This document shows, piece by piece, positions 22,143 to 63,511 of a stretch of 64,000 nucleotides of DNA. A model generated the notes under the pieces. It was given only the letters and a program-made list of their open reading frames with translations. It did no database searches and had not been told where the DNA came from. The stretch covers positions 25,074,266-25,138,265 of the forward strand of contig OX387197.1 in the NCBI GenBank assembly GCA_947561715.1. The letters are read 5' to 3'. Made by a program: the position numbers and the translations under genes. Position 1 is the first letter of the stretch; each line of letters starts with the position of its first letter. Origin of the DNA: Ascidia mentula (Eukaryota > Chordata > Ascidiacea > Phlebobranchia > Ascidiidae).

Positions 22143-22304
22143 AGTTCCCGGCAACATTGCCACTTTGTCTGATAGGTCATTAACAGCTTGAATGGTCAGA
22201 TTGCATCCTTCCAGCTCCAATTCTTCAATGTTGCCGATGCAATGTGCCAGTGCATGTCCACCCATACCTCCAATATCATTGCGGGAGAGGTTGAGTTTCT
22301 TCAG
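22143..22304 (-). CDS. LRR cassette exon E1
   Basis: 162 nt, phase 0, 54 residues, two RI-type LRRs starting 'LKKLNLSRNDIGG'. Variable loops 'MGGHALAH' and 'TIQAVNDL'; ends 'MLPGT'. It is the last exon of the array before the NACHT core and the only cassette class (with its twin E11) that lacks a gtaag or gtgag donor. Confidence 0.85.
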
Positions 22305-23490
22305 CTGATGGCAAAAAAATCTTTGCAATTATCAAATTAGGTTATTTGATACAATTAAAAAACAATCCTGTTTTACAAAAATGTGCAACCAAAGTATGGA
22401 AGTTGGGACAAAAAATAAACATGCTCGCAATACAAAGTTAAATGAAAGCACAAAATAGAATAAAAATTCCATGACACCTGTAATGGCCCATTTCAGTAGT
22501 GGGATTCAACAAGTTTTAATGACCTAAATGAATCTGTTGTTAACAACCGAATGTGTGGACCTTTGATTTACTTTAAGCACTGTATTCCCGCGGTTAATAT
22601 ATGGTATGCTGCTAGTGAGATAAATGGTGCTAAAATATTTGTATCCCACCACTTGCCCATTTCATCAATCAGCAGTGATTAAAATGTGAGAGAACTAAAA
22701 TAATGACATAAAAATGTTTTTATAGTTTTTGACAATAAATCGTTTTAAACAGTCTACTCATTACAAAGTTAGTCCTACATACCGATAAAATATCATAAAA
22801 AAGATTATGCAAACATTCTAAAAAGAAAACTGTTTTGGCCCAAGTTATAATGGGTCAGTGTGGAGATGTAATAAAAGCCTTTTTTCATAAAATCCACTGA
22901 ATCCATGACATCAAACGTACTATAAACATTAGTATGGAAAATATTCAAAATTGTGGACTCATGAAATCCTACTGCAGTGTCAAAAACCTACAAGTTAAAA
23001 TTTGATGTTACAGTCACTGCATTCATAAAAGCAAACAATATAATAGGCTCTTTGCTATACTCCATACTATCAAATCTAATCCAAAACTAACAAAACATTT
23101 CAAAGGCATGATAGTTGCAGAACATTCGAAGAAAAATTGGTGCATGAGAAGCATAAGGTTGGCCACCCCTGATATATAAACAAACTTTGAGAAAAATAAC
23201 TTGCAAGAAAAAAGATATGTGAATTGTTTGTTAAAGTTATGAAAAATTAGCAAGAAACTTGATAAAGCGTAGACTCTAATTTAATCATGTATTCAATTCC
23301 AGCATTCCTATTGGTTCGATCTTCAACAAAGATATTAAAATGAAAATCTTGTATCTATCAAAAAAGGTTAATGGCTTCAAAATAATACAAATATAAACTT
23401 GGTTAACAGAAGTAAACACAAGCATAGTCTGCCAATAATTGCAAAAACATTTAGATTATATTACAATTATAACACAAACAGCTATCTTAC

Positions 23491-23652
23491 AGGTTCTGGC
23501 AACATTGCAATTCTGTGTGATAGAGAATCAAGAGTACGGTGAGTTAAGTTGCATCCTTCCACTTCCAATTCTTCAATGTTGTGGATGCAGTTTGCCAGTT
23601 TACATCCACCCTCATCTCCAATATTGTTGTGCGAAAGGTTGAGTTTCTTTAG
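23491..23652 (-). CDS. LRR cassette exon E2
   Basis: 162 nt, 54 residues, acceptor cttcag, donor gtaaga. Starts 'LKKLNLSHNNIGDEGG'; variable loops 'CKLAN' and 'THRTLDSL'; ends 'AMLPEP'. Closest relative in the window is E12. Confidence 0.88.
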
Positions 23653-24726
23653 CTGAAGGTAAAGAAACATTGCAATTATTACATTAAGTTATTTGATACA
23701 ATTAAAAAAATTACAGTTTTACAAACACACAAAAATGTGCAACTAAAGTACAAAAGTAGAAAAATAAACATGCTTGCAACACAAAATATAACGAAAGTGC
23801 GAAATAGAATTAAAACTAGTTGGTTCTTAGAATTTAGTAATCTACATGGACCGGTTGTTATCAATCAAATGTGTAGAGATATGTTTCACTGCGAGCACTG
23901 TATTCCACAGTTAATATATGGCATGCTGCTAAAGAGACTGGATGCTAAAATATTTGAATTCCACCACCGGCCCATTTCATCAACCAGCAGTGATTAAAAA
24001 GTGGGAGAACTGAAAAAATGTGAAAAATTTTTTTTTATAGTGTTTTGACAATCTATTAATTACAAAGTTAGTCTTAGAAATTGGACTAAAAATGAAATAC
24101 TAAAAAGAAAAGTGTTGTGGCCCAAGTTATTATGGGTCAGTGTGGAAATGTGATAAAGGCCTTTTTTCATAAAATCCACTGGAACCATAACATAGAACAT
24201 ACTTTACCCATTAGTATAGACAATATTCAAAATTGTGGAATCATGAAATCCTACTGCCATGTCAAAAACCTACAAGTTAAAATTTGATGTTACAGTCACT
24301 GCTTTCATAAAAGCAAACAATATAATAGGCTCTTTGCTATACTCCATACTATCAAATCTAATCCAAAACTAACAAAACATTTCAAAGGCATGATAGTTGC
24401 AGAACATTCGAAGAAAAAAGGTTGTTGGGAAAAAAAACTTTCAAGAAAAAATGTATGAGAATTTTTGAAGTTATTAGTAATAAACAAGAAATTTGATAGA
24501 GTGTAGACTCTAATTAAATCATGCATTCAATTCCAGCATTCCTTTTGGTTGGATCTTCAACAAAGAAATTAAAAAGAAAATTTTGTATCTATCAAAAAGG
24601 TAAATAGCTTTAAAATGATACAAATATAAACTTAGTTAACAGAAGTAAACACAAGCAGCATAGTCTGCCAATAAATGTAAGAACATTTAGATTATATTAC
24701 AATCATACCACAAACAGTGATCTTAC

Positions 24727-24888
24727 AGGTTCTGGCAACATTGCAATTGTGTGTGATAGAGAATTCAGAGTACGGTGAGTTAAGTTGCATCCTTCCACTT
24801 CCAATTCTTCAATGTTGTGGATGCAATCTGCCAGCACAAAAGCACCCATATCTCCAAACTTGTTGTGGGAGAGGTTGAGTTTCTTCAG
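24727..24888 (-). CDS. LRR cassette exon E3
   Basis: 162 nt, open throughout, donor gtaaga. Loop residues 'FGDMGAFVLAD' and 'THRTLNSL'; ends 'AMLPEP'. It is 852 bp from E4 with matching introns, so E3 and E4 look like a tandem duplication. Confidence 0.87.
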
Positions 24889-25578
24889 CTGGAAGTAAAA
24901 AACATTGCAATTATCACATTAGATTATTTGATACAATAAAAAAATCCAGTTTCACAAACACACAAAAATGTGCAACCAAAGTATGAAAGTTAGAAGAAAA
25001 AAATAAACATTACAAATACAAAATAAAATGAAAGTACGAAATACAATTAAAGTAAAATAATGACAATAAACCTTTCAAACAATCTACTCATTACAAAGTT
25101 AGTCATGCATATTGGACAAAAAAATTAAATCCTTAAAAGATCATGTGAAGATCTTAAAAAGAAAATTGTTGTGGCCCAAGTTATTGTGGGTCAGTGTGGA
25201 GATGTGATGAAGAAATTTTCATAAAATCCACTGAAACCATTTCATAGAACATACTATAGCCATTAGTATAGATTGTATTTAAAACTGTGGAGTAATGAAT
25301 TCCTACCATCTTCACATTCACATATTATATGTTTTTTCTAAAAAACTGATTCAAAAAGTGACCAGAATATTCTGTTGCACACAAAAGGATATCATGAACT
25401 AGAAAAGTTTAAAAAATACTGCTAAAAATAAAATTTGTATCTATCAATAAAGTAAATAGCTTTAAAGTAACACAAATATAAACTTAGTTAACAGAAGTAA
25501 ACACAAGCAGCATAGTCTGCCAATAAATGCAAGAACATTTAGATTATATTACAATCATAACACAAACAGTGATCTCAC

Positions 25579-25740
25579 AGGTTTTGACAACTCTGCAATT
25601 CTGTGTGATAGAGAATCAAGAGTACGGTGAGTTAAGTTGCATCCTTCCACTTCCAATTCTTCAATGTTGTGGATGCATGTTGCCAGTTCATATCCACCCA
25701 TATCTCCAATATTGTTGTGGGAGAGGTTGAGTTTCTTCAG
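25579..25740 (-). CDS. LRR cassette exon E4
   Basis: 162 nt, donor gtgaga. Loops 'IGDMGGYELAT' and 'THRTLDSL'; ends 'AELSKP', the least typical last residues among the cassettes. Confidence 0.87.
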
Positions 25741-27651
25741 CTGGAAGTAAAAAACATTGCAATTATCACATTAGATTATTTGATACAATAAAAAATCCAG
25801 TTTCACAAACACACAAAAATGTGCAACCAAAGTATGAAAGTTGGAAGAAAAAAATAAACATTACAAATACAAAATAAAATGAAAGTACGAAATACAGAAA
25901 AAACTAAAATAATGACAATAAACCTTTCAAACAATCTACTCATTACAAAGTTAGTCATGCATATTGGACAAAAAAATTAAATCCTAAAAAGATCATGTGA
26001 AGATCTTAAAAAGAAAATTGTTGTGGCCCAAGTTATTGTGGGTCAGTGTGGAGATGTGATGAAGAATTTTTTTCATAAAATCCACTGAAACCATTTCATA
26101 GAACATACTATAGCCATTAGTATAGATAGTATTGAAAACTGTGGAGTTACAAAATCCTACCATCTTCACATTCACATATTATATGTTTTTTCCAAATAAA
26201 TGATTCAAAAAGTGATCAGAATATTCTGCTGCACACAAAAGGATGTCATGAACTGGAAAAGGTTAAAAAACACTGCTGAACAGAAAATGAAAAAATAATC
26301 GGGAAATGCCAACTAGGTAGTCATTTGCAATAAAATAATTCTAGTCAAAATAAAATAAGAAAAATATGCATTGAATGTTCTTTTGGGGCTCAAGCCTGTT
26401 CCGCATTACAAAAACATTGTGCAACAGTTGTGCATTTCTGCAACAATACATACAAAGTGAAACCAACCTATGGCATTTTGCATCGTTACAGACAACACAC
26501 TATAACCCAGAGATGCATTCTAATGAAATATCACTTGTAGCTAGAATTGGGATTACTGAAATTTTTAAATCTAATCTAAAATAAAAAGGGATGAGAGTTG
26601 TGACACATCTGAAAAAAAAAACAATGGTGCATGAGAAGCATACAGTTGGCCACCCCTGATATATAAATAAACTTAGAGGTTGTCTGCATGAAAACCTTGC
26701 AACAAAAAAGTTGTGAATTGTGGCCAAAGTTATATTAGGTCAGTGTGGAGATGTAATACTTTTTTTTTCAAAAAATCCACTGAAACCAGAACATAAAATG
26801 TACTATAATAACCATCAGTATACAAAATATTTAAAATTGTGGAATCAAGAAATCCTACTGCAAGTTTGATGTTACAAGTTGATGTCAAAAACCTAAAGTT
26901 AAAATTTGATATTGCAGTCACTGCTTTCATTAAAGCCAACAATATAAGCACACCAAAGCAAAAAAAGACGTCAATATGATAGCTGTGATCAACAAGTATG
27001 GACCTGCACAGTGGGGCGATCCTGCCTTGTCATGCTTAAAACACTTTTTTGCTACTACTAGGTTAATCAGTCTTTTAGTTCTGTTCTTAAACTTGGCATC
27101 ACTGTGGTTTTATCAGAAAACCCCTTGACAAAAAGTTAACCAGTTTCTCTATGATCAGTTTGAAGCAATTGCTCTACAGTTGTAATGTAATGGTTGTAAC
27201 AGTGATTCAACTCTAAGTTGTAGGTAATAGGGAGGCCACAGATTTTGCAATGAAATGGGGAGAAGAGGTTTGTTAAACAACTAACCAAATATTTAGAATT
27301 TGGCCATAAACTTACAGCAACCATCTTCACATTAACATATATCTTTTTTCTAAATAAACAATTAAAATAGAGACCAAGATATCATGTTGCACACAAAAGG
27401 ATGTCATGAACTAGAGAAGGTTAAAAACACTGCTCAACAGAAAATGAAAAATTCTTTGTATTTTCCAGATACGTTGAGCCCAGACAAAACAAAGAAGTTA
27501 GATAGTTTGTAAAATGCCAACTAGGTAACCATTTGTGATTAAATAATTTTACTCATGAGAAACATTTGAATTGAATATTTCTTTTGGGCTCTTGCCTATT
27601 ACCAACTGCAAAAATATTTTGGGACTGTGGTTCAATTTTCAAAATATATAC

Positions 27652-27930
27652 CAGGGATAGCCAACCTATGGCATATTGTATCACTACAAGGAACACACTA
27701 TACCCCGTAGATAATAAAAAACCATGCCTCGTCATGACAAAAATATTAAATTCACTGATTTCCAGAAGAAAATTATAAAATAAATACATATCACTTATAG
27801 CTAAAACTGGGAATCCTGACATTTTTTTCAAATCTTATCTAAACTTAAAATTCAAAGGCATGATAATTGTGGCACATCTGAAAAGTGGGGAAATAATAGT
27901 GTATGAGAAGCATAAGGTTGGTCACCCCTG
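27652..27930. mobile_element. hAT-like MITE, 279 bp
   Basis: Starts 'cagggatagccaacctatgg' and ends 'aaggttggtcacccctg', imperfect inverted repeats of the hAT CAGGG...CCCTG type. Flanked by 8-bp near-duplicates atatatac and atatataa. Non-coding. Intron between the E5 and E4 cassettes. Confidence 0.7.
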
Positions 27931-28069
27931 ATATATAAACAATCTTCGAGCTTCTCAGCACAAAACCTTGCAACAAAAAAAGTTATGTGAATTCTTTAAA
28001 AGGCTTTGAAATAATACATGCATGAACATTTAGAATATAATACAATTAAAATACAAACAGTGATCTTAC

Positions 28070-28231
28070 AGGTTTTGGCAGCTTTGCAATTTCATGTAAT
28101 AGATCATCAACATCAAAGCCTGCTAGATGGCATTCTTCCAGTTCCAACTCTTCAATGTTGTGGATGCACTTTGTCAGTGCATCAAAACCCCAATGTCCAA
28201 TATAGTTGTGTGAGAGGTTGAGCTTTTTCAG
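28070..28231 (-). CDS. LRR cassette exon E5
   Basis: 162 nt, donor gtaaga. A distinct subtype shared with E7: 'LKKLNLSHNYIGHWGFDALTK' (first) and 'AGFDVDDLLHEIAKLPKP' (second). Open throughout. Confidence 0.87.
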
Positions 28232-29749
28232 CTAAAACCAAAAATATGTTACAATTATTACATTAGATTTTTCTATTTAAAATGTCTAAGAACTAAAAAA
28301 TAACATAAAAAAACAAATATAGTAAGTGTTTAGATGATGAACATTTTGAAGAATCTACTCAATACACCGTTAGTCCTACATACTGGACAAAAAAATTAAA
28401 TCCGATAAATAAACGATTAAAAGAGAGAACAAAATATTATGTTGCACACAAAAGGGTGTCATGAACCAGAAAAGGTTAAAAACACTGCTGAACAGATAAT
28501 GAAAAATTCTTTGTATTTTCCAGATACCCAGAAAAAACACAAAAGTTAATAGTTTGTAAAATGCCAACTAGGTAACCATTTATAATTAAATAATTTTACT
28601 CAACATTTGAATTAAATGTTCTTTTTGGACTCTTGCCTACTATCCACTGCAAACATTTTTGGGACTGTGGTTTAATTTTCTAACAATATATACCAGGGTT
28701 AGCCAACCTATGACATATTGTATCACTACAAGCAACACACTATACCCTGTAGATAATAAAAAACCATGCCTTGTCGAAAAAAAAAAAAAAATTATAAAAT
28801 AAATTCAAATCACTTATAGCTAGAACTGGAAATTCTTAATTTTCTTTTCTAATATAATAGTGTATGAGAAGTGTATCAGTAAAAAAAATGTGACAAATCA
28901 CCACTAATTATTTATACATCTCTGCTATATCCAAATTTTATGTTTTAGATTTTGTTTAACATGCATTAAAAAGTATATATACTATAAATATTCAGTTGTT
29001 GCGACAGTATGATGATTTTGCCATCATAAAAATAAAGTAATAAGAATAAACCACTACACTAGGAAAAATAACAGAAAATAATGTGTTTTCTGCATAATTA
29101 GTGGGGAGTGAATTGAGGAACGCAGAGAAATGTAAAAACCAATTTTTTTTTGGCAGAATTCTAAAAAATAAGTTATTAGAGAAGAGTGTAAACAGTGTGT
29201 TTGTTAGCCCCGAACACAGTATCATAGCAGTTATATTTTGCCTCACTTCTTTGTGTAAACAGTGTGTTTGGAAATTTTGCTTCACTTCATTGCGTTGTTC
29301 AGTTATGATGAGACATAAATTGAACAACTGGAACTCTCACAGGAGTGCAAAATACATAAATTTTACTCAATGAAAAAAGGGTAGTTCATAGCCAAGAAAG
29401 ATCTATTATTATCAATCTTGCTTTACAGTTGTCCTTGCATGATAATAATAATTTCAAAGGTAGTCGAGAATGCTTGGAAGGTAAACTAGTGGTGATGTAA
29501 AGGCCGTGTGGTAGGAAAAAGATTTAAAAATATTGTAAGTAAGAAATAAACCAACTGTTGGATGTCAGACAATTTGGTCAAAAATAAGAATCTGAGGTAT
29601 TTTGTTTTTGTTTTTTAGGTTAACTAATTAGACTTCATCATTCACTGGATTCAATGTAAGAGAGCTGCAAAGATTTAATGGCACCTGCATGGAGGTTTTT
29701 CTGCACTTGAAAATAAACATCACGCTTCATAAAAACAGATAATTCTCAC

Positions 29750-29902
29750 TGGTTTTGGTAATCCAACAATCTTTTCACACAGCTCCTCAATATCCTTCAC
29801 AGTAAGTTCACATTTACTTAAATCAACTTCTTCAGTATGGTTAGAAAAGTTGCTCAATGCTGCTATTGAATTTATAACTTTGTTGCTGGATGATTTTGGC
29901 TT
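29750..29902 (-). CDS. KPK cap exon, copy 2 (153 nt)
   Basis: Phase 0 at both ends, 51 residues, acceptor tttttcag, donor gtgaga. Starts 'KPKSSSNKVINS' and contains an LRR-like 'EEVDLSKCELTVKDIEELC', ending 'VGLPKP'. It resembles a half-repeat cap for the LRR array. Open and splice-competent although the exons upstream of it in this block are broken. Confidence 0.75.
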
Positions 29903-30597
29903 CTGAAAAAAAGTGACACACATAATATTATATTGGAATGCTCAGGGCAACCAGCCCCTGTTTTGTCAAAAAAAAACTTTTTTGTAGCAATATGATTTCG
30001 CTTATTCCTTTATAAAATAAAATTTGGATTTTTTTCTGTAAAATATAAAATAATGTTTTAGTTTAAAAGCACAAACTAAACAAACAAGCTTGAACAACAA
30101 ATAAGATTATTGACTATTTGGGGGATAAACTATTGTAGCTGTGTCAAAGTGAAAGTAGTATATTTCCCAATTCAAAATCTGCAAAAAATTGTTTTTACAA
30201 GGTGAACAACACCATATGGTGCTTTTCAGTAAGTATGAACAGAAAGTTCGGTTTGATGATAGGCAAGGTTTAGTGTAGGTTAGAATCATTGTTTGAACTG
30301 TATAAATGTGTTCGATTTTTTGTTTATTGTCACAGAAATGATGAAAATCAACTTTGTGGTTGGTGCAGCAGTTGAGGTGATGATAGGAGTGGATTCCATC
30401 CAGTGCATGTTTTGTTGATGGATAGCAAAATTATTACAGTTTATTCGGCTGAATTTATATGGCATAAAAAATTCTTGTTTTGGTGCGTCACTACTTTTCA
30501 GTATAAAAGCTTGACAAAGTCCAAAAAACAGCAAAGTTTATTTTTATAATAGTTCTTGGATACTACAACATGTTTATCATCTTTAAACATAGCTTTT

Positions 30598-30838
30598 TAC
30601 CTTAAAGTATCCTTTTGACTTGGCATCCTTTTGACTTGAAATTGGCCTTTGTTTACGAAAATCTTTAGATAGCCCAAAAAATTTTAAAATTAAACTTTTT
30701 ATAAAGGGGTTTCATGTAACTAATACATTTTTTTTCTGCAGTTGGTTTGAAGCTTGTTTCCAATGTGAGAGATTCTTCAAAATGCTGGGTATGTTCTCTG
30801 TCTGGTTGTGATGAAGTTTCCTTAAATCTCCTCTTTAA
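30598..30838 (-). pseudogene. Relic of N-terminal exons 1 and 2 of the NLR gene
   Basis: A copy of exon 2 lies at about 30601-30674; its acceptor AG is lost (TTG before GGCTAT) and it is 6 nt shorter. A copy of exon 1 (about 30730-30838) lacks roughly 100 internal bases and is cut off before the start codon. The intact counterparts are at 43186-43265 and 43490-43781. This block therefore cannot start a protein of its own. Confidence 0.8.
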
Positions 30839-31002
30839 AAGAAATTAAAAAGAAAATTTTGTATCTATCAAAAAGGTAAATAGCTTCAAAATGACACAAA
30901 TATAAACTTAGTTAACAGAAGTAAACACAAGCAGCATAGTCTGCAAATAAATACAAGAACATTTAGATTATATTACAATCATACCACAAACAGTGATCTT
31001 AC

Positions 31003-31164
31003 AGGTTTTGGCAACATTGCAATTCTGTGTGATAAAGATTCAAGAGTAAGGTTGGTTAAGTTGCATCCTTCCACTTCCAATTCTTCAATGTTGCCGATGC
31101 AATTTTGCAGCACAAAACCACCCACATCTCCAATATTGTTGTGAGAGAGGTTGAGTTTCTTCAG
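31003..31164 (-). CDS. LRR cassette exon E6
   Basis: 162 nt, donor gtaaga. Loops 'IGDVGGFVLQN' and 'TNLTLESL'; 'CIGNIEEL' replaces the usual 'CIHNIEEL'; ends 'AMLPKP'. Confidence 0.87.
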
Positions 31165-33114
31165 CTGGAAGTAAAAAACATTGCAATTATCACATTAGAT
31201 TATTTGATACAATAAAAAAAAAATCCAGTTTCACAAACGCACAAAAATGTGCAACCAAAGTATGAAAGTTAGAAGAAAAATATAAACATTACAAATACAA
31301 AATAAAATGAAAGTACGAAATACAATAAAACTAAAATAATGACAATAAACCTTTTAAACAATCTACTCATTACAAAGTTAGTCATGCATATTGGACAAAA
31401 AAATTAAATCCTTAAAAGATCATGCGAAGATCTTAAAAGGAAAATTGTTGTGGCCCAAGTTATTGTGGGTCAGTGTGGAGATGTGATGAAGAAATTTTTT
31501 CATAAAGTCCACTGAAACCATTTCATAGAACATACTATAGCCATTAGTATAGATAGTATTAAAAACTGTGGAGTTATGAAATCCTACCATGTTCAAATTC
31601 ACATATTATATGTTTTTTCTAAATAACTGATTCAAAAAGTGACCAGAATATTCTGTTGCACACAAAAGGATGTCATGAACTAAAAAAGCTTAAAAAAACA
31701 CTGCTGAACAGAAAATAAAAAAAATAATCGGAAAATGCCAACTAGGTAGTCATTTGCAATAAAATAATTCTAGTCAAAATAAAATAAGAAAAATATGCAT
31801 TGAATGTTCTTTTGGGGCTCAAGCCTGTTCAGCACTACAAAAACATTGTGCAACAGTTGTGCATTTCTGCAACAATACATACAAAGTGAAACCAACCTAT
31901 GGCATTTTGCATTGTTACAGACAACACACTATAACGCAGAGATGCATTCTAATGAAATATCACTTGTAGCTAGAATTGGGATTACTGAAATTTTTAAATC
32001 TAATCTAAAATAAAAAGGGATGAGAGTTGTGACACATCTGAAAAAAACAAAGGTGCATGAGAAGCATACAGTTGGCCACCCCTGATATATAAATAAACTT
32101 AGAGGTTGTTAGCATAAAAACCTTGGAACAAAAAAGTTGTGAATTGTGGCCCAAGTTATATTAGGTCAGTGTGGAGGTTTAATATTCTTTTTTTTTCAAA
32201 AAATCCACTGAAACCATAACATAAAATGTACTATAATAACCATCAGTATAGAAAATATTCAAAATTGTGGAATCAAGAAATCCAACTGCAAGTTTGATGT
32301 TACAGCCAAGTTGATGTCAAAAACCTAAAGTTAAAATTTGATATTGCAGTCACTGCTTTCATCAACGCCAACAATATAAGTGCACCAAAGCAAAATAAAT
32401 TTAATTATCAAGGATGGAAAAAAGACTACAATATGATAGCTGTGATCAACAAGTATGGACCAGCACAGTGGGGCGATCCTGCCTTGTCATGCAAAAGCTT
32501 AAAACACTACTTGGCTACTACTAGGTTAATGAGTCTTTTAATCCTGTTCTTAAACTTGGCATCACTGTGGTCTTATCAGAAAACCCCTTGACAAAAAGTT
32601 AACCAGTCTCACTATGATCAGTTTGCAGCAATTGCTTGACAGTTGTAGTGTAATGGTTGTAACAGTGATTCAATTCTAAGTTGTAGGTAATAAGGAGGCC
32701 ACAGATTTTGCAATGAAATGGGGAGAAGAGGTTTGTTAAACAACTAACCAAATATTTAGAAGTTGGCCATAAACTTACAGAAACCATCTTCACATTAACA
32801 TATATCTTTTTTCTAAATAAACAATTAAAAGAGAGACCAAGATATTATGTTGCATACAAAAGGATGTCATGAACAAGAATAGGAAAAAACACTGCTGACA
32901 GAAAATGAAAAATTCTTTGTATTTTCCAGATACGTTGAGGACAGACAAAACAAAGAAGTTAGATAGTTTGTAAAATGCCAACTAGGTAACCATTTGTAAT
33001 TAAATAATTTTACTCATGAGAAACATTTGAATTGAATATTCCTTTTGGGCTCTTGTCTATTACCAACTGCAAAAATATTTTGCGAATGTGGTTCAATTTT
33101 CTAGCAATATATAC

Positions 33115-33531: not shown

Positions 33532-33693
33532 AGGTTTTGGCAACTTTGCAATTTCATATAATAGACCATCAACATCAAAGCCTGCTAGATCGCATCCTTC
33601 CAGTTCCAACTCTTCAATGTTGTGGATGCACTTAGTTAGTGCATATAAACCCCAATCTCCAATATTGTTGTGTGAGAGGTTGAGCTTTTTCAG
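33532..33693 (-). CDS. LRR cassette exon E7
   Basis: 162 nt, donor gtaaga. Same subtype as E5: 'IGDWGLYALTK' and 'AGFDVDGLLYEIAKLPKP'. Open throughout. Confidence 0.87.
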
Positions 33694-35606
33694 CTAAAAC
33701 CAAAAATATGTTACAATTATTACATTAGATTTTTCAAATTAAAATGTCGGAGAACTAAAAAATACCATAAAAAACAAATATATTTAGCGTTTAGACGATG
33801 AACATTTTGAAGAATCTACTCAATACACCGTTAGTCCTACATACTGGACAAAAAAATTAAATCCGAAAAGATTATGCAAAAATCCTAAAAAGAAAACTGT
33901 TGTGGCGCAAGTTATAATGGATCAGGGTGGTGATAAAATGATGAACTTTTGTCAGAAAATCCACTGAACCCATAACATAAAATGTACGATAACCATTAGT
34001 ATAGACAATATTTAAAATTATGGAATCATGAAATCCTACTGCGATGTCCAAAATTTACAAGTTAAATTTGATGTTACAGTCACTGCTTTCATAACAGCCA
34101 ACAATATAAGCACAACAAAGCAGAATAAATTCAATTATCAAGGATGGTAAAAGATATGTAACTACTACAGGGTGGTTGATGCAATTACTGCGAACCAAAT
34201 GACTTCAATATGATAGCTGTGATGAACAAGTAAAACCTGCACAGTGGGGCGATTCTGCCTTGTCATGCAAAAGCTTAAAAACTACTTGGCTACTATAAGG
34301 GTAATGAGTCTTTTAATCCTGTTCTTAAACTTGGCATCACTGTAGTTTTATCAGAAAACCACTCGACAAAAACTTAACCAGTTTCACTATGATTCCGCAT
34401 TACAAAAACATTGTGGAACAGTTGTGCATTTCTGCAACAATACATACAAAGTGAAACCAACCTATGGCATTTTGCATGGTTACAGACAACACACTATAAC
34501 CCAGAGATGCATTCTAATGAAATATCACTTGTAGCTAGAATTGGGATTACTGAAATATTTAAATCTAATCTAAAATAAAAAGGAATGAGAGTTGTGACAC
34601 ATCAAAAAAAACAATGGTGCATGAGAAGCATACGGTTGGCCAGCCCTGATATATAAATAAACTTAGAGGTTGTCAGCATGAAAACCTTGGAACAAAAAAG
34701 TTGTGAATTGTGGCCCAAGTTATATGAGGTCAGTGTGGAGATGTAATAAAAAACTTTTTTCAAAAAATCCACTGAAACCATAACATAAAACATACTATAA
34801 TAACCATTAGAAAAAAAATATTCAAATTGTGGAATCAAGAAATCCTACTGCAAGTTTGATGTTACAGCCAAGTTGATGTCAAAAACCTAAAGTTAAAATT
34901 TGATATTGCAGTCACTGCTTTCATCAACGCCAACAATATAAGTGCACCAAAGCAAAATAAATTTAATTATCAAGGATGGAAAAAAGACTACAATATGATA
35001 GCTGTGATCAACAAGTATGGACCTGCACAGTGGGGCGATCCTGCCTTGTCATGCTTAAAACACTTCTTTGCTACTACTAGGTTAATCAGTCTTTTTATCC
35101 TGTTCTTAAACTTGGCATCACTGTGGTTTTATCAGAAAACCCCTTGACAAAAAGTTAAACAGTTTCTCTATGATCAGTTTGCAGCAATTGCTCTACAGTT
35201 GTAATGTAATGGTTGTAACAGTGATTCAACTCTAAGTTGTAGGTAATAGGGAGGCCACAGATTTTGCAATGAAATGGGGAGAAGAGGTTTGTTAAACAAC
35301 TAACCAAATATTTGGAAGTTGGCCATAAACTTACAGCAACCATCTTCACATTAACATATGTATTTTTTCTAAATAAACAATCAAAATAGAGACCAAATTA
35401 TTATGTTGCACACAAAAGGATGTCATCAACCAGAAAAGGTTAAAAAAAAACTGCTGAACAGAAAATGAAAGATTCTTTGTAATCATTTATAACAAAATAA
35501 TTTTACTCATGAGAAAAATTTGAATTGAATGTTCTTTTTGGGCCTTTGCCTATTATCCACTGCAAAAATTTTTGGGACTGTGGTTCAATTTTCTAGTAAT
35601 ATATAC

Positions 35607-35884
35607 CAGGGTTAGCCAACCTATGGCATATTGTATCACTACAAGCAACACACTATAAACCGTAGATAATAAAAAAACATGCCTCGTCATGACAAAAAAT
35701 TAAATTCACTGATTTCCAGAAGAAAATTATAAAATAAATACACATCACTTACAGCTAGAACTGGAAATCCTGAAATTTTTTTCAAATCTTATCTAAACTT
35801 AAAATTCAAAGGCATGATAGTTGTGGCACATCTGAAAAGTGGGGAAATAATAGTGTATGAGAAGCATAAGGTTGGTCACCCCTG
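35607..35884. mobile_element. hAT-like MITE, 278 bp
   Basis: 'cagggttagccaacctatgg' to 'ggttggtcacccctg', preceded by atatatac and followed by atacacaa. Worn or truncated relatives occur around 26450-26667, 28694-28880, 31880-32090, 34455-34650, 38950-39220, 40522-40735, 59445-59643, 60135-60370 and 61310-61492. Confidence 0.68.
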
Positions 35885-36183
35885 ATACACAAACAAACTT
35901 TGAGGTTGTCAGCACAAAACCTTGCAACAAGATATGTTATTTGAATTGTTTATTAAAGCTATAAAAATAAGAACGAAAATTTAATTCATGAATTCAATTC
36001 CAGCATTCCTATTAGTTGAATTCCTAAGAAAGAAACTGGAAGAAAAAATTGTATTTGTAATCTACAAGGCTTTGAAATAATACATGCCTGAACTTAGTTA
36101 ACAGAAGTAAACACAAGCAGCATAGTCTGCAAAGAAAGAACATTTAGATTATAATACAATCACACAACAAACAGTGATCTTAC

Positions 36184-36345
36184 AGGTTTTGGCAACATTG
36201 CAATTCCATGCGATAGATGAACAAGAGCATGGCGAGTTAGATTGCAACCTTCCACTTCCAATTCTTCAATGTTGTGGATGCACCTTTCCAGTTCGTATCC
36301 CACCTCATCTCCAATATTGTTGTGAGAGAGGTTGAGTTTCTTCAG
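36184..36345 (-). CDS. LRR cassette exon E8
   Basis: 162 nt, donor gtaaga. Loops 'IGDEVGYELER' and 'TRHALVHL'; ends 'AMLPKP'. Closest relative is E16 ('DEVGYELAR'). Confidence 0.87.
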
Positions 36346-37252
36346 CTGGTGGGAAAAAAAAACATTGAAATTATTTTATTACGTTATTTGATACAATACA
36401 AAAATCCAGTTTCACAAACACACAAAAATGTGCAACCAATATGAAAGTTGGAACAAAATAAATAAAAATGTGAGGATCACAAAATGAAATGAATTAAAAA
36501 AAATAATGAAACTTTGACAACAACAATCGCCCATTTCAGTGGTGGGATTCAAACTGGTTCTTGGAATTTTGGGCGTAAACAAACTGATTAACCAAATGTG
36601 TGGACCTATGTTGCACTTCAAGCACTATAATCCCACAGATACTATATGGCATGCTGCTAGTGAGATAACGGATGCAAAAATATTTGTATCACACCACTGG
36701 CCCATTTCATCAATTAGCAGTGATTAAAATGTCGAAGAATTAAAACAATGAGAATAAAACTTTTTGAGAAATCCTACTGCAATGTCAAAAATCTACAAGT
36801 AAAAATTTTGTGTTACAGTCACTGCTTTCATAAAAGCCAACAATATAAGCACACCAAAGCAGAATAAATTTAACTATTAAGATGGAAAAAATATGTAATT
36901 ACTAAAGGGTGGTTGATGTAATTACTGGGAACAAAATGACTTCAATATGATAGCTGTGATCAACAAGTAAAACCTGTGCAGTGGGCAACCCTGCCTTTTC
37001 ATGAAAAACTTGAAACACGTCTTGGCTTCTACGAGGGTAATGAGTCTTTTAATCCTGTTCATAAACTTGGCATCACTGTGTCGTATTAGAAAACCCCTCG
37101 ACAAAAAGGTAACCAGTTTCACTATGTTTGGTTTTCAGCGATTGCTTGGCGGTTGTAGTGTAATGGTTGTCCCATAAATTAGTGCAAGTTTTGTCACAAC
37201 GAGAATCCGTTGAAACAAACAGGGCCAAACTGATCATTACACATTTTGACAG

Positions 37253-38545
37253 TAACCCTGTTTACATGGCCAAGTCGACTTGAGCATCAAGTCGACTCAT
37301 GACCGGGTCACGTGATTTTCAAATTCGATGCGCGAAAACGACGAATTTACATGGGGCTTTTAAGTCAGCTTAAGTTAAGCTGTCTCGGGCTGACAGGCTG
37401 TAAATTCAGACTCTGTACTAAATAAATTATCAATATTTCTAATCTAAGCATGCAGAGAAAAGTTATTGGCAGTTAGTTTACGCAAATGCTTGCTGCAAAT
37501 TGGTCCTTGATTATAATGTGAGTTTACTTTGCCAGATATAAAAGATGATTTAACTAGAAAGCCTGCTGCAACCCATATTTTTTAAATTTCTGATTAAACT
37601 AAAAGGCTGCATTTTCCTGGAATGTGTTCACAACAACACCATGGTAAGATTATTCAAGTGAAAATTTCATGTTTAGTGGTATTAATTATCTCTGTCCTTC
37701 TTCACAGGATCCTTTTCAGAAGCTGTCTAATCCCGTAATCCCATGTACAAATGAGTGTCAGAAAAGACTGAATGGAATGTTTCATACCAGCCCAATGTTA
37801 ATTAATTTGAAACAAATATACTGAAGATGTGATAGTTACATAACATAAACTTGTGTCATGGCATTCTTGTCATATTTGTTGTTTTTTTGACAAACAAAAG
37901 GTTTACATAAGCCTGCTTTTGTATTTTATGGTTGATTGTTGTTCACATAATCCTTGCATAAATAAGATGCAGTAGCCTAAATATGAATAAACAACCAGTT
38001 TGCATTGACTTGTTATATTATAGCACATCCAGCAGCAAATGAAAACAGTCAACACAAGTGCATTCTTCTTTCAAGCAAGTGTCAGCATTCCTGCAATGCA
38101 TTTGTTTCCTTCAGGTCTCCAAAATGCAACTTAGGTCCTCAAAACGAATGTTGCTTTTTTGTATCTTGATGCTTGTACAATTCATTTAACACTTGCGCAG
38201 TATTTATCAAAATTAACTCGAGTAAGCACATCCTTCTCGCCCCTGCAGCATAGAGCATACTCACGTAGTTGTACTAGAACTAGTTTATTACTTTTAAGGT
38301 TTATTGTAAACAGCAAACCCTCAACGCACAACCTCATAAACAAATTACCTAATCCTAACTTCTTCGCGGCACTTGTCGCAACTGGGTTTATGCTGACTTA
38401 ATCGCTTAAGCTGTCCCGTAAACCACTCTCCATGTAAGGCCGAGACGGCTTAAGACGCTTGCCCTTTTCTCTTCGCCGAAAACGAGAGAGTCGGATCGGC
38501 GAGTCAGCTTCGAAGCCGTCTTAAACCGTCATGTAAACGGGGTTA
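37253..38545. mobile_element. 1,293-bp terminal-inverted-repeat DNA element, TAACCC ends
   Basis: The left end 'taaccctgtttacatgg' is the inverse of the right end 'catgtaaacggggtta'. Flanks 'cattttgacag' and 'gtgatttaactttatg' are contiguous ('acagtgattcaactttatg') at 40068-40090 and 60848-60870, so paralogous empty sites prove insertion; only a single g is repeated at the joint. No transposase frame is recognised, and CG-rich ends contrast with the surroundings. Superfamily not assigned. An older relative is at 18034-18950. Confidence 0.8.
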
Positions 38546-39555
38546 GTGATTTAACTTTATGTTGTTGGTATTGGAGAGGACACAGAATTTTAAATGTAAT
38601 GGCGATAAGAGCTTTGTCAAACAACCAATCACATATTTATAAGTTGGCCATACAGTTACAGCAACCATAATCACATTAACATATACCTTTTTTTCAAAAT
38701 AAATGTTCAAAAAAACAGACCGAAATGTTATGTTGCACACAAAAGGGGGTCATAAACTAGAAAAGGGTAAAAACACTGCTGAACAGAAAATGAACAATTC
38801 TTTGCATTTTCCAGATACGATGGGCCCAGACAATAAAACAAGTTAGATTGTTTGTAAAATGTCAACTAGGTAATTATTTAAAAATAAATTAGTTCAATGC
38901 TTTTTTGGGCTCTAACAAAAAAATATTACAACCGTGTTGCACTTTTGCAACAATATGTACCAGAGGTAGAATATCTATAGCATTCGGCATCATTACAGAC
39001 TATGCTTTCTACCCCATGGATGAAAAAGCATGCATTTCTCATGAAAAATATCATTGATTTCCAGAAAAATGTATCAAAGAAATTCGGATCTCTTACAGCC
39101 ACAACTAGGATTACTCAAATTTAAAATAAAATTAAAAAAGGATTCAACAATATGATAGTTGTGGGTTGTGGCACATCTGATGAACAACTTTGTGCATAAG
39201 AAGCATAAGGTTGGCCACCCATAATAATTATATAAACAAACTTTGAGCTTGTCACCATAAAATTCTTGCAAGAAAAAGGTATGTGAATTCTTTTTTAAAG
39301 TTATGAGGAATTAACAAGAAACTTGATAAAGTGTAGACTCTAATTAAATCATGTATTCAATTCCAGCATTCATATTGGTTGGATCTTTAACAAAGAAATT
39401 AAATAGAAAATTTTGTATCTATCAAATAAGTGAATGGTTTACAATGATACAAATATAAACTTGGCTAATTGAAGCAAACATAAGCAGCATAGCATGCAAA
39501 TAAATGCAAGGACATTTAGATTATATTACAATCATAACACAAACAGTGATCTTAC

Positions 39556-39717
39556 AGGTTTTGGCAACATTGCAATTCCTTGTAATAGATAATCAAGAGT
39601 GCCGGGAGTTAAGTTGCATCTTTCCACTTCCAATTCTTCAATGTTGTGGATGCAATTTGCCAGTTCGCGCCCACACCTTGGTCGAACATTGTTGTGGGAG
39701 AGGTTGAGTTTCTTCAG
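39556..39717 (-). CDS. LRR cassette exon E9
   Basis: 162 nt, donor gtaaga. The most divergent loop: 'NNVRPRCGRELAN' in place of 'NNIGDxGG', and 'VERCNLTPGTLDYL'. The frame is open, so the change is substitutional. Confidence 0.85.
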
Positions 39718-41053
39718 CTGGAAGAAAAAAAAACATTGCAATTATTACATTAACTTATTTGATACAAATAAAAAAAAAACAGTTTCAGTAAAACTTGTGC
39801 AGTTGAGCGATTCTGCCTTGTCATGCAAAAGCTTAAATCTTTTCTTGGTCACTAGAAGGGAAAAAGTCTTTTAATCCAGTTCTTAAACTTGACATCACTG
39901 TGGTTTTATCAGAAAACCCCTTGACAAAAAGTTAACCAGTTTCACTATGATCAGATTGCAGTGATTGTTCGGCAGTTGTAGTGTAATGGTTGTCCAATTA
40001 AATGGAGTTAGTTTAGTCACAATGAGAATCCGTTGAAACAAACAGGGCCAAACTGATCATTACACATTTTGACAGTGATTCAACTTTATGTTGTTGGTAT
40101 TGAAGGGGACAAAGATTTTTTAATGTAATGTCGAGAGGAGGTTTGTTAAACAACCAATAACATATTTAGAAGTTGGCCATAAACTTACAGCAACCATTCT
40201 CACATAAACATATGTATTTTTTCTAAAAAAACGAATAAAAGAGAGTCCAAAATATTATGTTGCACACAAAAGGGTGTCATGAACCAGAAAATGTTAAAAA
40301 CACTGCTGAACAGAAAATGAAAAATTCCTTGTATTTTCCAGATACGTTGAGCCCAGAAACAACAACAAACATAGATAGTTTGTAAAATGCCAACTAGGTA
40401 ATCATTAAAAACAAAATAATTTTACTCAACATTTGAATTGAATGTTCTTTTAGGACTCTTTGCCTATTATCCACTGCAAAAATTTTTTAGACTGTGGTTC
40501 AATTTTCTAGCAATATATACCAGGGTTAGCCAACGTATGGCATATTGTATCACTATAAGCAACACACTATACCCATTAGATAATAAAAAAACATGCCTTG
40601 TCATGACAAAAAAACAAATTCACTGATTTTCACAAAAAAAATATAAAATAAATTCAAATCACTTAGAGCTAGAACTGGGAATTCTTAATTTTTTTTGAAT
40701 ATAATAGTGTATGAGCAGCATAAGGTTGGTCTGATACACAAATAAACTTGGAGGTTGTCAGCACAAAACCTTGCAACAAAAAATGTTATGTGAATTCTTC
40801 TTTAAAGCTATTAGGAATAAGAACAGAAATCGATGGAATGTGGATTTTCATTAAATTATGTAATAAATTTCAGCATTCCTATTTGTTGAATTCCTAAGAA
40901 AGAAACTGGAAGAAAATTTTGTATTTGTAATATACAAGGCTTTGAAATAATACATGCCTGAACTTAGTTACTAGAAGTAAACACAAGCAGCATAGTCTGC
41001 AAATAAAGAACATTTGGATTATATTACAATCACACCACAAACAGTGAACTTAC

Positions 41054-41215
41054 AGGTTTTGGCAAATTTGCAATTCCATGTGATAGATGAAGAAGAGCAA
41101 AGTCTTTTAGGTTGCATCCTTCCACTTCCAATTCTTCAATGTTGTGGATGCACATTACCAGTTGATATCCACCTTCATCTCCAATATTGTTGTGGGAGAG
41201 GTTGAGTTTCTTCAG
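41054..41215 (-). CDS. LRR cassette exon E10
   Basis: 162 nt, donor gtaagt. Loops 'IGDEGGYQLVM' and 'KDFALLHL'; ends 'ANLPKP'. First cassette after the cap exon if gene A starts at 43781. Confidence 0.88.
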
Positions 41216-42250
41216 CTGAAAGTAAAAATTCATAAAAATGAAAGGTGATGTGATACAATTAAACTCAAATTTCACAAACACAAAAAACTCAACAACCAAA
41301 GTATCAAAGTTAAAACAATTAGTACAACATACAAAATATAATGACATGGCATATGGCACCCAATTATTTTTTTCCTTTAAACCAGCAGTCAAAAAAATGG
41401 GACAAATCACCACTAATTATTTATACACCTCTGCTATATCCAAATTTTATGTTATAGATTTTGTTTAACATGCATTAAAAAGTATACTAGAAATATTCAG
41501 TTGCGACAGTATGATTTTGTCATCATAAAAATAAAGTAATAAGAATAAACCACTACACTAGGAAAAATAACAGAAAATAATGTGTTTTGTGCATAATTAG
41601 TGGGGAGTGAATTGAGGAACGCAGAGAAATGTAAAAACCAATTTTTTTTTTGGCAGAATTGTAAAAAATAAGTTCTTAGAGAAGAGTGTAAACAGTGTGT
41701 TTGTTAACCCCAAACACCGAATCATGGCAGTTGGATTTTGCCTCACTTCTTTGTGTAAACAGTGTGTTTGGAAATTTTGCTTCACTTCTTTGCGTTGTTC
41801 AGTTATGATGAGACATAAATTGAACAACTGGAACTCTCACAGGAGTGCAAAATACATAAATTTTACTCAATGAAAAAGGGTTGCTCATAGCCAAGAAAGA
41901 TCTATTATTATCAATCTTGCTTTACAGTTGTCCTTGCATGATAATAATAATTTCAAAGGTAGTCGAGAATGCTTGGAAGGTAAACTAGAAACTAGTGGTG
42001 ATGTAAAGGCCGTGTGGTAGGAAAAAGATTTAAAATATTGTAAGTATGAAATAAACCAACTGTTGGATGTCAGACAATTTGGTCAAAAATAAGAATCCGA
42101 GGTATTTTGTTTTTGTTTTTTAGGTTGACTAATTAGACTTCATCATTCACTGGATTCAATGTAAGAGAGCTGTAAAGATTTAATGGCACCTGCATGGAGG
42201 TTTTTCTGCACTTGAAAATAAACATCATGCTTCATAAAAACAATTCTCAC

Positions 42251-42403
42251 TGGTTTTGGTAATCCAACAATCTTTTCACACAGCTCCTCAATATCCTTCA
42301 TAGTAAGTTCACAGTTACTCAAATAAACTTCCTCAGTAAGGTTAGAAAAGTTGCTCAATGCTGCTTTTGATTTTAAAGCTTTGTTGCTAGATGATTTAGG
42401 CTT
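42251..42403 (-). CDS. KPK cap exon, copy 1 (gene A exon 3)
   Basis: 153 nt, phase 0 both ends, donor gtgaga. 'KPKSSSNKALKSKAALSNF', then LRR-like 'EEVYLSNCELTMKDIEELC', ending 'VGLPKP'. It follows exon 2 in phase and leads into E10 in phase. Confidence 0.8.
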
Positions 42404-43185
42404 CTGAAAAAAGGTGACACACATAATCTTATATCGGAATGCCTGGGGTAACAAGCCCCTGTCTCGTCCAAAAACCGTTTTTGTAGCAACAAAATTATTT
42501 CTCTTAATCTTTCATAAAATAAATTTTGGATTTTTATCTATAATATAGTGACTATCTAGGAGATAAACTATTGTAGCTGTGTCGAAACGAAAGTAGTAAT
42601 ATATTTCCAATGCAAAATCTGCAAAAATTTTTGTTTACAAGGTGAAAACCACACCATTTGAAAAAAAATATTGACCCTGGTGGTTCTTAGTAGGGATGCA
42701 TCGAAAATTTGGTTTGCCGAATTTTTTTTGGACAAAACTATGATTTTTACAATTCAGTTTTGGCTGAACATTTCTGCAAAATTACGCCAAAACTGAAAAT
42801 GTTACAGCATGCATTGCTGATATGCAAGGTTTAGTATAGGTTAGAATCATTGTTTAAACTGTATAAATGTGTTCGATTTATTTGTTTAATGTCACAGAAA
42901 TGATGAAAGTCAACTTTGCAGTTGGTATAACATTCAGGGTTATTCTTTAAGTGCCAAAAAAAGAGTGGATGATAGGAGTACATTCCATCCAGTATATACA
43001 TGTTTTGTTAATGGATACCAAAGTTTTTTCAGCTGAATTCATATGACATAAAAAATTGCATTTTCGGTGCATCACTACTTTTCACCATAAATGCCTAAAA
43101 AAGTGAAATAAATCAGAAAAAATTATTTTTTTAATAGTTCTAGGACATTATAAATGTTTGTCATCTTCAAATATAGCTTTTTTAC

Positions 43186-43781
43186 CTTTTCGTAAAAGTA
43201 TCCTTTTGACTTGGCATCCTTTTGATTTGAAATTGGCCTTTGTTTACTAAAATCTTTAGATAGCCCTGAAAATTTTCAAATTAAACTTTTTCCAAGGAGT
43301 TATAATGTAACTACCAATGGATGGCAAAGCGTTTTTAATAGTTTATGAAATGAATTCTCTGGGATAGGAACTCTTTAAGAAGACTGGTTTATTTACACCT
43401 AAAAGTGCCAAATCAAAAGAATTCAGTTCGTAGACATAAGACTGATACAGCACATTTAATATTTTAATACTCTATATAATAAGTAATACATTTTTTTTCC
43501 GCAGTTGGTTTGAAACTGGTTTTCTCCACTTTCATAAATGGATTCCTTGAAAGGGTGGTTGGTCCATCTGTGAAAGTCCTTTCAGGAAAACACCTGTTAA
43601 TGTAATCATTATACACTGGTCCCAATGTGAGAGATTCTTTAAAATGCTGGGTTTGTTCCTCTATGTCTGGTTGTGATGAAGTTTTTTTCAATCTCCTCTT
43701 TAAATTATCTTTAAATGCAGAATGAGGTGTAGGATGCATAAGTTTATTGGCTGTTGTAGATTTTTGATCAGAATCATCCAT
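43186..43781 (-). CDS. Gene A N-terminal exons 1 and 2
   Basis: Exon 1 is 43781-43490 (ATG start, ends phase 1 before gtatta, 97 codons + 1 base): 'MDDSDQKSTTANKLMHPTPH' onward, rich in Lys, Ser and Thr, no recognised CARD, Pyrin or death fold. Exon 2 is 43265-43186 (acceptor ttttcag, donor gtaaaa): 'LSKDFSKQRPISNQKDAKS', 'GYFYEK'. The phase-1 junction agrees on both sides and exon 2 leaves in phase 0 for the cap exon. An in-frame stop lies just upstream of the ATG and a 'ttttgcag' acceptor 17 bases before it suggests a separate 5' UTR exon. Extension of this gene to the LRR array and NACHT core is inferred from phase and order. Confidence 0.65.
43362..43460. mobile_element. Short derivative of the foldback MITE at 13504
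   Basis: 'aactctttaagaagactgg', 'gtttatttacacct' and 'gtgccaaatcaaaagaattc' plus 'agttcgtagacataagactg' match the arm and internal sequence of the 13504-13900 element in a shortened form. It lies in gene A intron 1. Confidence 0.6.
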
Positions 43782-63450: not shown

Positions 63451-63511
63451 AAAAAAAAGAAACCAGAACATTTAGATTATATTACAATCATAACACAAAC
63501 AGTGATCTCAC

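Follow-up and report, generated by a model that had tools for sequence, protein, structure and literature searches.

Results

Exon structure of gene A

The DNA analysed here is a 64,000-nt stretch of the Ascidia mentula genome (assembly GCA_947561715.1, contig OX387197.1, forward-strand positions 25,074,266 to 25,138,265; hereafter the window). Gene A lies on its minus strand, so that the higher coordinate of each exon is its 5′ end. It begins with the ATG-bearing exon N1 (43490..43781; 292 nt, phase 0 to 1), followed by N2 (43186..43265; 80 nt, phase 1 to 0). An earlier sequence-only reading listed ten exons of 162 nt and two of 153 nt between these exons and the NACHT exon. We found all twelve, each in phase 0 and bounded by AG and GT. 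These are cap1 (42251..42403; 153 nt), five LRR cassettes (41054..41215, 39556..39717, 36184..36345, 33532..33693, and 31003..31164), cap2 (29750..29902; 153 nt), four further cassettes (28070..28231, 25579..25740, 24727..24888, and 23491..23652), and a final cassette, LAST (22143..22304), which ends in LPGT. A truncated second copy of N1 and N2 without ATG (30595..30838, minus strand) sits between the cassette at 31003..31164 and cap2; its N2 acceptor AG is lost in gene A. All seven genome matches to N1 fall inside the gene cluster described below.

We scanned the window for 162-nt open frames with an LRR motif and AG/GT borders and obtained 16 matches on the minus strand (15 cassettes of genes A and B and one shifted frame) and none on the plus strand. 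The same scan of 60 shuffles of two-base blocks yielded at most 1 match (mean, 0.13).

LAST is followed by a 58-nt segment containing an in-frame TAA, which we propose to be an intron (22085..22142), a linker exon (21979..22084; 106 nt, phase 0 to 1), the NACHT exon (20008..21773; 1766 nt, phase 1 to 0), two C-terminal LRR exons in phase 0 [c1 (19753..19914; a 162-nt cassette) and c2 (19387..19563; 177 nt)], and exons ZU5a (17618..17767), ZU5b (17447..17557), ZU5c (17247..17344), UPAa (16995..17168), and UPAb (16693..16936). Joined in the order N1–N2–cap1–five LRR cassettes–cap2–four LRR cassettes–LAST–linker–NACHT–c1–c2–ZU5abc–UPAab, they read through 1,762 codons without a stop. Two tail exons (16596..16626; 31 nt, phase 0 to 1, and 16176..16279), the second ending at a TAA (16,176) that is overlapped by AATAAA, extend the frame to 1,806 codons plus stop. 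A frame of about 1,806 codons from 43,781 to 16,176, as earlier claimed, was thus obtained as a 25-exon minus-strand model with no inner stop and with GT–AG at every junction. The final exon borders of gene A were set by hand because automatic splice models erred: a model with cheap introns placed spurious mini-exons inside introns, and one with a stricter cost recovered most C-terminal exons of gene D but, in gene A, broke up the NACHT exon and left out c1, ZU5a, ZU5c, and UPAa.

Domains encoded by gene A and its relatives

In the gene A model, Pfam matches to LRR, NACHT, and ZU5 were above the cut-off. NACHT scored 56.2 bits in gene A and 51.1 bits in gene B (cut-off, 26.7), LRR_6 scored 36.1 bits with its best stretch after NACHT, and ZU5 scored 22.4 bits in gene A (cut-off, 21). 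A search of the N-terminal 766 aa of gene A for a CARD, DEATH, or PYD domain before NACHT found none at E ≤ 0.1, and the modelled tail after UPAb, 44 residues, is too short for a death domain. ZU5 was detected at E ≤ 0.1 in all five C-termini given (A, D, B, C, and E).

The border between ZU5 and UPA carries the motif VxHF[S/T] (VSHFS at the end of ZU5c in gene A), with HFS in A, D, and Bp (3/6) and HFT in B, C, and E. The C-termini searched gave no Pfam match to UPA; this domain was assigned by position and the HFS motif. Peptidase_S68 matched weakly, below the cut-off, in two of five members (E 0.045 in gene A). Among solved structures, nothing matched the C-terminus significantly (best E by sequence, 0.94; by profile, ankyrin-2 ZU5 at E 0.3).

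Walker A (GQ[SQP]GIGKT; GQSGIGKT in gene A) is present in all five NACHTs of the cluster. Their Walker B reads DG[AV]GKA (FDGAGKA in gene A) and lacks the second acid of D-[GA]-x-D-[EQ], which is retained in eight of eight other NLRs examined (L001–L008) and in L039, a relative described below. The NACHT exon of gene A also contains 33-bp repeats close to its 3′ end.

Tandem gene cluster

Reading 200 kb, we found six tandem genes (A, B, Bp, C, D, and E) on one strand and in one order, each with its own ATG exon ahead of the array. The order N-terminal exons, cap, LRR(n), NACHT, LRR, and ZU5-UPA occurs in five of them; since the copies are all recent relatives, this conservation does not amount to six independent tests. 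The departure from the usual NACHT-then-LRR order noted in the sequence-only reading was therefore found in 5/6 copies. At the other NACHT sites of this genome, LRRs of this kind lie downstream in 4/4 scored places with an LRR within 5 kb.

The arrays contain 5–11 LRR exons per gene, and spacings near 850, 1,200, and 1,840 bp recur in them, which supports the earlier suggestion that arrays grow and shrink. All 47 array exons of the six genes keep phase 0, an open frame, and AG/GT sites. For gene B, a run of exons before NACHT had been noted; inside the window it has seven exons (5′ ends 63664, 61957, 58729, 57878, 56627, 55262, and 53924 [LAST], minus strand), and those at 63664 and 57878 are 153 nt, not 162 nt. 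The in-window part of this array spans 53763..63664 and includes a second cap at 62850-63002; beyond the window edge the array goes on with another four LRR exons, a second cap, and the N-terminal exons, up to window position 73,125. Downstream lie the NACHT exon (51832..53423 from its acceptor, phase as in gene A) and the c1, c2, ZU5, and UPA exons (50077..51738, with SHFT at the ZU5-UPA border), all on the minus strand. A hAT element is located between genes A and B, gene Bp has one GC donor instead of GT, and gene D, like gene A, contains a truncated second N-terminal set.

Gene D, a sister gene without NACHT

Gene D has the same ends as its sister genes, and c1 and c2 are present in it as in the other five; it contains no LAST, linker, or NACHT, and its reading frame is intact. 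Its last array intron is joined directly to the 3′-terminal 26 bp of the NACHT-LRR intron. In this 807-bp intron before c1, positions 14–778 match the intron before LAST of gene A with 78% identity, followed by these 26 bp from the end of the NACHT-c1 intron (26/26 identical to A and Bp). Gene D thus carries the array and ZU5-UPA in the same frame, as one gene that lacks NACHT. As far as gene structure can tell, this argues strongly that the array and the NACHT core would also belong to one gene.

Module exchange and selection

NACHT identity was 89% for A-C and A-E, 93% for B-Bp, and 72% for A-B. ZU5a identity was 94% for A-Bp, 96% for A-D, 98% for Bp-D, and 48% for A-C. UPAb was left out of this comparison (the B and C rows were out of frame, with stops). 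The conflict between NACHT and ZU5 kinships indicates that modules have been exchanged between genes. The array cassettes are symmetric, as are the linker and NACHT exons taken together (0 to 1, 1 to 0), so that unequal exchange within introns can make modules longer or shorter, or take them out, with the frame intact. The cassette phases likewise permit receptor diversity generated by splicing, and do no more than permit it.

Selection was estimated from 41 of the 47 LRR exons, leaving out one that was out of register and five of other lengths. The value of w was 0.12 at 18 β-strand codons and 1.55 (bootstrap 0.88–2.69) at 19 variable codons. The array is under coding constraint at the codon level.

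Junction between the array and NACHT

When LAST is left unspliced, it reads on into VGTYMESLFERL and a TAA stop. This tail is kept in all five NACHT genes with one synonymous change, and the 58-nt segment differs at 0–1 sites in three gene pairs, the LAST exons of which differ at 5–13 of 162 sites. A segment that is near-invariant in 5/5 genes and has a kept tail looks as though it were sometimes translated. Its length would be ordinary for an intron because gene A has other introns of 58, 60, and 66 nt. The donor of LAST, GTGGGC, is weak. A rough gene-finder did not use the whole LAST exon with this donor in any of the five genes; its choice in A, C, and E was a GTAAAC donor at the stop codon, only a portion of the linker, and an acceptor inside the NACHT exon. 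The conserved segment with its in-frame stop and the weak donor make an LRR-only product possible, which may be formed beside or instead of the fusion.

In the five genes, the NACHT exon follows LAST after only 339–369 nt. No ATG with a donor score >0.1 common to all five was found in this interval. A, C, and E, unlike B and Bp, have an ATG located 195 nt past LAST, and its phase-1 donor (score 3.1) could splice to NACHT. At 85 nt after LAST, B and Bp have AATAAA, and A, C, and E have TATAAA. All five NACHT exons have a Met about 40 codons in; the 38 codons ahead of the first Met gave w values of 0.49–0.57 in three gene pairs, and the linker was near-neutral (0.75–0.99).

Discussion

A defining trait of NLRs is taken to be their domain order, NACHT followed by an LRR sensor. 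The cluster genes are of the NLR kind in a variant form, in which an LRR array also stands before NACHT. We consider it probable that every unit with a NACHT exon is one gene encoding a double-LRR NLR, and the order in 5/6 copies together with the frame of gene D supports the one-unit reading LRR(n)-NACHT-LRR-ZU5-UPA given earlier. Its product would comprise an N-terminal solenoid (a cap and 5–11 two-repeat LRR cassettes), the linker, the NACHT ATPase module, the LRRs of exons c1 and c2, and a FIIND-like ZU5-UPA C-terminus. Splicing from LAST to the linker over the 58-nt intron would join array and NACHT. The front solenoid would presumably act as the sensor and NACHT would bind nucleotide for assembly, with poor hydrolysis to be expected from its DG[AV]GKA motif, and ZU5-UPA is predicted to cut itself at HF/S, after which the freed UPA part may signal.

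Each unit might instead be a tandem pair, with an LRR-only gene (N-terminal exons, cap, and LRRs) that ends in VGTYMESLFERL and a stop and, starting shortly after LAST, a NACHT-LRR-ZU5-UPA gene, possibly operon-like or trans-spliced. The tail and stop kept in 5/5 genes with a single synonymous change fit such an arrangement, as do the AATAAA after LAST in B and Bp, the ATG at +195 with its phase-1 donor in A, C, and E, the Met near codon 40 of all five NACHT exons, and the relative at C1:24.5 Mb, a NACHT-LRR-ZU5 gene whose upstream 3.6 kb holds no LRR match below E 0.47. However, a start exon common to all five genes was not found in the 339–369 nt available, the NACHT acceptor is in phase 1 and the frame ahead of the first Met is mildly constrained, none of the six units consists of one half alone, and gene D carries array and ZU5-UPA as one open gene. 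We therefore regard two genes as unlikely.

That the cluster is decaying, with arrays that are relics and only some units expressed, is very improbable. The truncated N-terminal sets in A and D, the acceptor lost in A, the GC donor in Bp, and the hAT element between A and B speak of decay, but phase 0, open frames, and AG/GT sites are kept in 47/47 array exons, which are constrained at the codon level, and the NACHT frames are open in 5/5. We give almost no credence to the array being the C-terminal LRR tail of a conventional NLR upstream, with an apparent fusion to NACHT produced by faulty modelling of the kind that merges tandem genes. The database protein P0021 (Gadus) does have five LRR motifs before its P-loop, followed by what looks by eye like a PRY/SPRY end belonging to a neighbouring gene. 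In the cluster, however, none of the six units has a NACHT match between its ATG exon and its array, and the upstream unit, where in view (5/6), has ZU5-UPA before that ATG. This artefact was rejected as contradicted by the exon map.

Within the single-gene reading, the conserved in-frame tail and stop mean that retention of the mini-intron would give an LRR-only protein. We tentatively propose, as a rather doubtful extension, that the junction is a built-in switch: retention of the 58-nt intron would yield an LRR-only decoy or co-receptor, and its removal an NLR that has front LRRs and a FIIND-like C-terminus. Given also the symmetric cassettes and a NACHT that can be removed, as in gene D, one locus could then yield LRR-only, LRR-ZU5-UPA, and LRR-NACHT-LRR-ZU5-UPA receptors with combinatorial sensors.

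Elsewhere in the same genome, L039 (C1:24,503,001-24,513,000) resembles the cluster genes in having one NACHT match, then six cassette-profile matches (one partial), then three ZU5-UPA matches; it differs in the 3.6 kb before NACHT, as noted above, and in an intact Walker B (DGLDE). In NLRP1, NACHT-LRR precedes ZU5-UPA. The cluster genes with NACHT share this order, and 3/6 copies have a candidate counterpart of the Phe-Ser motif at the ZU5-UPA border of the FIIND proteins NLRP1 and CARD8 (the other three carry Thr for Ser), but they have an LRR array before NACHT too and no detected PYD or CARD. According to the excerpted text of PMC3210808, the cleavage motif is SF/S in NLRP1 and CARD8 and HF/S in PIDD, the latter matched by VSHFS. 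Gene D, as LRR(n)-ZU5-UPA, also resembles PIDD1, from which the cluster genes differ in the absence of a death domain (as judged from the gene A tail), in a single ZU5, and in the NACHT of gene D's sisters.

Sponges and other early animals also have large NACHT-LRR families. NACHT-Zu5 combinations are known in early-diverging animals, and 81 of 126 NLRs of Dysidea avara are of the NLRX class, mainly without an N-terminal effector domain, in the portion of PMC12909245 consulted. That portion defines bona fide NLRs by C-terminal LRRs, and the terms "N-terminal LRR" and "LRR-NACHT" do not occur in the main text of this paper. In zebrafish NLR-B30.2 genes, gene conversion acts differently on NACHT and C-terminal domains, a point of likeness to the cluster, but B30.2 takes the place of ZU5-UPA and the excerpt of PMC4852459 mentions no front LRR array.

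The sensor, switch, and output parts of the cluster genes seem to be exchangeable cassettes because the arrays vary, an array precedes NACHT, and one sister gene lacks NACHT. A family with a variable LRR array before NACHT, LRRs after it, and a NACHT-less sister would show sensor, switch, and FIIND-like output to be interchangeable. Changes in sensor length and NACHT presence across alleles or tissues would become testable, and the cluster would offer an animal comparison for the evolution of NLRP1 and PIDD.

Structure of gene A

The window spans C1:25,074,266–25,138,265 of a genome that comprises 195.8 Mb in 79 contigs. The hand-set exon model of gene A runs on the minus strand from the ATG at 43,781 to the stop codon at 16,176 (window positions) and has 25 exons with AG and GT borders, encoding 1,806 codons plus stop. 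In order, it consists of the N-terminal exons N1 (292 nt) and N2 (80 nt), cap1 (153 nt), five LRR cassettes (162 nt each), cap2 (153 nt), four LRR cassettes (162 nt each), the final front-array cassette LAST (162 nt), the linker (106 nt), NACHT (1766 nt), the C-terminal LRR exons c1 (162 nt) and c2 (177 nt), three ZU5 exons, two UPA exons, and two tail exons. Thus, ten 162-nt and two 153-nt exons lie between N1/N2 and NACHT, as the sequence-only reading had claimed, and its single open model of 1,806 codons was confirmed by joining the 25 exons. Each cassette encodes two LRRs and has phase 0 at both borders. A cassette-frame scan of the window detected 16 frames on the minus strand (one a shifted frame), none on the plus strand, and a maximum of one in any of 60 shuffles. 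The NACHT exon also carries a 33-bp repeat in about six copies (20059–20269); these add 11-residue units (SVLDLSxSxLS) immediately ahead of the C-terminal LRRs, and gene Bp contains fewer of them.

Tandem cluster of six units

Mapping of every exon type by tblastn across C1:24,980,001–25,180,000 (contig OX387197.1) revealed six same-strand tandem units in this 200 kb: Bp, B, A, C, D, and E. All six have the order N1, N2, cap, LRR array, and later c1, c2, ZU5, and UPA exons. The arrays contain 6, 11, 10, 7, 8, and 5 LRR exons, respectively (LAST counted where present), 47 in total, of which 42 are 162 nt and five are 153, 153, 153, 156, and 159 nt. Within genes, cassette spacings recur near 850, 1,200, and 1,840 bp, a pattern that tandem cassette duplication would leave. 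The N1 exon had seven matches in the genome, all inside the cluster: five full-length, a shorter exon in gene C (residues 1–56), and one partial copy in A. A second, truncated N-terminal set precedes a second cap in both A and D. Between genes A and B lies a hAT-family transposase open frame with a zinc finger and hAT dimerisation domain (window 46412–48292, plus strand). The HFS exon of Bp is followed at C1 ~25157398 by a GC donor (GCAAGA) in place of GT, possibly a GC-AG intron or damage.

Relationship between the front array and the NACHT core

Gene D has both ends of the unit and lacks LAST, linker, and NACHT. Positions 14–778 of its 807-bp intron before c1 align with the pre-LAST intron of A at 78% identity, and the end of this intron is identical (26/26) to the last 26 bp of the NACHT–c1 intron of A and Bp; D and A therefore differ by one junction between two introns. 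The reading frame is kept in D because the array and c1 are both phase 0. Deletion of the NACHT block is the simpler account of D, while a D-like gene may instead have gained the block by insertion. On either account, the array and the ZU5-UPA end belong to a single predicted gene in D, and nothing else argues as strongly for one gene in the other five units.

Three elements separate LAST from NACHT in A: a 58-nt segment, the linker exon (106 nt), and an intron of 205 nt. Since other introns of gene A measure 58, 60, and 66 nt, the 58-nt length is no obstacle to splicing. All five NACHT-bearing genes retain both splice sites of the linker, whose phase (0 in, 1 out) matches both neighbours, and 38 NACHT-exon codons ahead of any Met are mildly constrained (w, the codon-level selection measure, 0.49–0.57). 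Splicing from the array to NACHT through the joint is likely. The alternative is an LRR-only gene followed by a separate NACHT-LRR-ZU5-UPA gene. The unspliced reading after LAST, VGTYMESLFERL-stop, is conserved in 5/5 genes, and three gene pairs with LAST exons diverged at 5–13 of 162 sites show just 0–1 differences in the 58-nt segment. The linker is near-neutral (w 0.75–0.99), and an ATG followed by a phase-1 donor lies at +195 in A, C, and E, though not in B and Bp. The LAST donor, GTGGGC, is weaker than the GTAAGA-type donors in the array; a rough gene-finder chose the whole LAST with this donor in none of the five genes and preferred, in A, C, and E, a stop-codon donor, partial linker, and inner NACHT acceptor. 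The contrary points at the joint give slightly less weight to one gene and slightly more to two, which we still regard as unlikely; the array and NACHT core probably form one gene. A second product carrying the LRRs alone is a realistic possibility.

Domains and motifs

Pfam detected LRR families in the first part of gene A, NACHT (55.8 bits; cut-off 26.7), LRR_6 after NACHT, and ZU5 (22.4 bits; cut-off 21). ZU5 was found at E ≤ 0.1 in all five C-termini given (A, D, B, C, and E); no UPA domain was detected by Pfam. At the ZU5–UPA border, A, D, and Bp carry VSHFS, B and C carry VSHFT, and E carries VPHFT; the reported cleavage sequences are HF/S in PIDD and SF/S in NLRP1 and CARD8 (PMC3210808). 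The parts of gene A that were scanned, upstream of the 44-residue tail, yielded no CARD, PYD, or death domain. All five cluster NACHTs have a Walker B without the second acid (DG[AV]GKA), whereas this acid is retained in the eight other NLRs examined and in the relative at C1:24.503–24.513 Mb. Weak hydrolysis would thus be expected.

Selection and module exchange

Over 41 equal-length cassettes, w was 0.12 for 18 beta-strand codons and 1.55 (bootstrap 0.88–2.69) for 19 variable codons in loops and helices after the strands, positions being assigned by the LRR consensus; for all codons of 42 cassettes, w was 0.67. This constraint indicates that the front array is preserved at the protein level, with its variable face on the loop/helix side and not on the strands. 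Diversifying selection at the variable codons is suggested, with an interval that includes 1.

Pairwise NACHT protein identity was 89% among A, C, and E, 93% between B and Bp, and 69–72% across groups. For ZU5a, it was 94–98% among A, Bp, and D, 72% between C and E, and 46–58% across groups. A therefore groups with C and E by NACHT but with Bp and D by ZU5. Recombination in the introns between NACHT and ZU5 would explain this mismatched kinship, as would gene conversion.

Comparison with other NLRs

Among 95 of 317 NACHT candidates of the same genome that were scored and listed (the cluster's own not included), four had, on their own strand and no more than 5 kb away, one of the 103 LRR matches outside the cluster (of 150 matches listed); in all four it was downstream only. 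The nearest relative seen (C1:24.503–24.513 Mb) has NACHT, then six LRR matches, then ZU5. Of three further stretches, each just 8–10 kb, two showed LRRs then ZU5, NACHT not appearing within the stretch, and one (L042) showed LRRs alone. The first of these (C70:2249001–2259000), the part of C70 2.09–2.64 Mb that was read, has seven to eight LRR matches before ZU5; numerous plus-strand LRR and ZU5 matches across that region possibly represent a large LRR-ZU5 (PIDD-like) family. The second (C71:19110001–19118000) has two compact LRR-ZU5 units with ~4.3 kb between them. Dense one-strand tandem NACHT matches occur at C71 ~14.2–15.35 Mb and 0.68–0.95 Mb, the largest groups among the 95 of 317 scored.

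A database search with the NACHT-to-UPA part, in which the best 7,975 candidates were scored, found at least 57 proteins. A P-loop was recognized by pattern in 55 of 57, and 54 of these 55 had no LRR motif ahead of it; the remaining one appears to be a fish gene model in which two genes were merged. NLRs are defined in PMC12909245 by C-terminal LRRs, and NACHT-Zu5 combinations are mentioned there for early animals; the terms 'LRR-NACHT' and 'N-terminal LRR' do not occur in the main text of that article.

Proposed mechanism

The sequence itself shows the gene structure, the open frame, the tandem family, the exchange of modules, and the constraint. In the mechanism proposed from these, the front LRR solenoid would serve as sensor and NACHT as assembly module, and ZU5-UPA would cleave itself in the manner of FIIND proteins, freeing the UPA part. 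As for the proposal that the array generates receptor diversity, germline change in cassette number is well supported by the array sizes of 5–11 and the recurring spacings, and diversity made by splicing is allowed by the exon phases.
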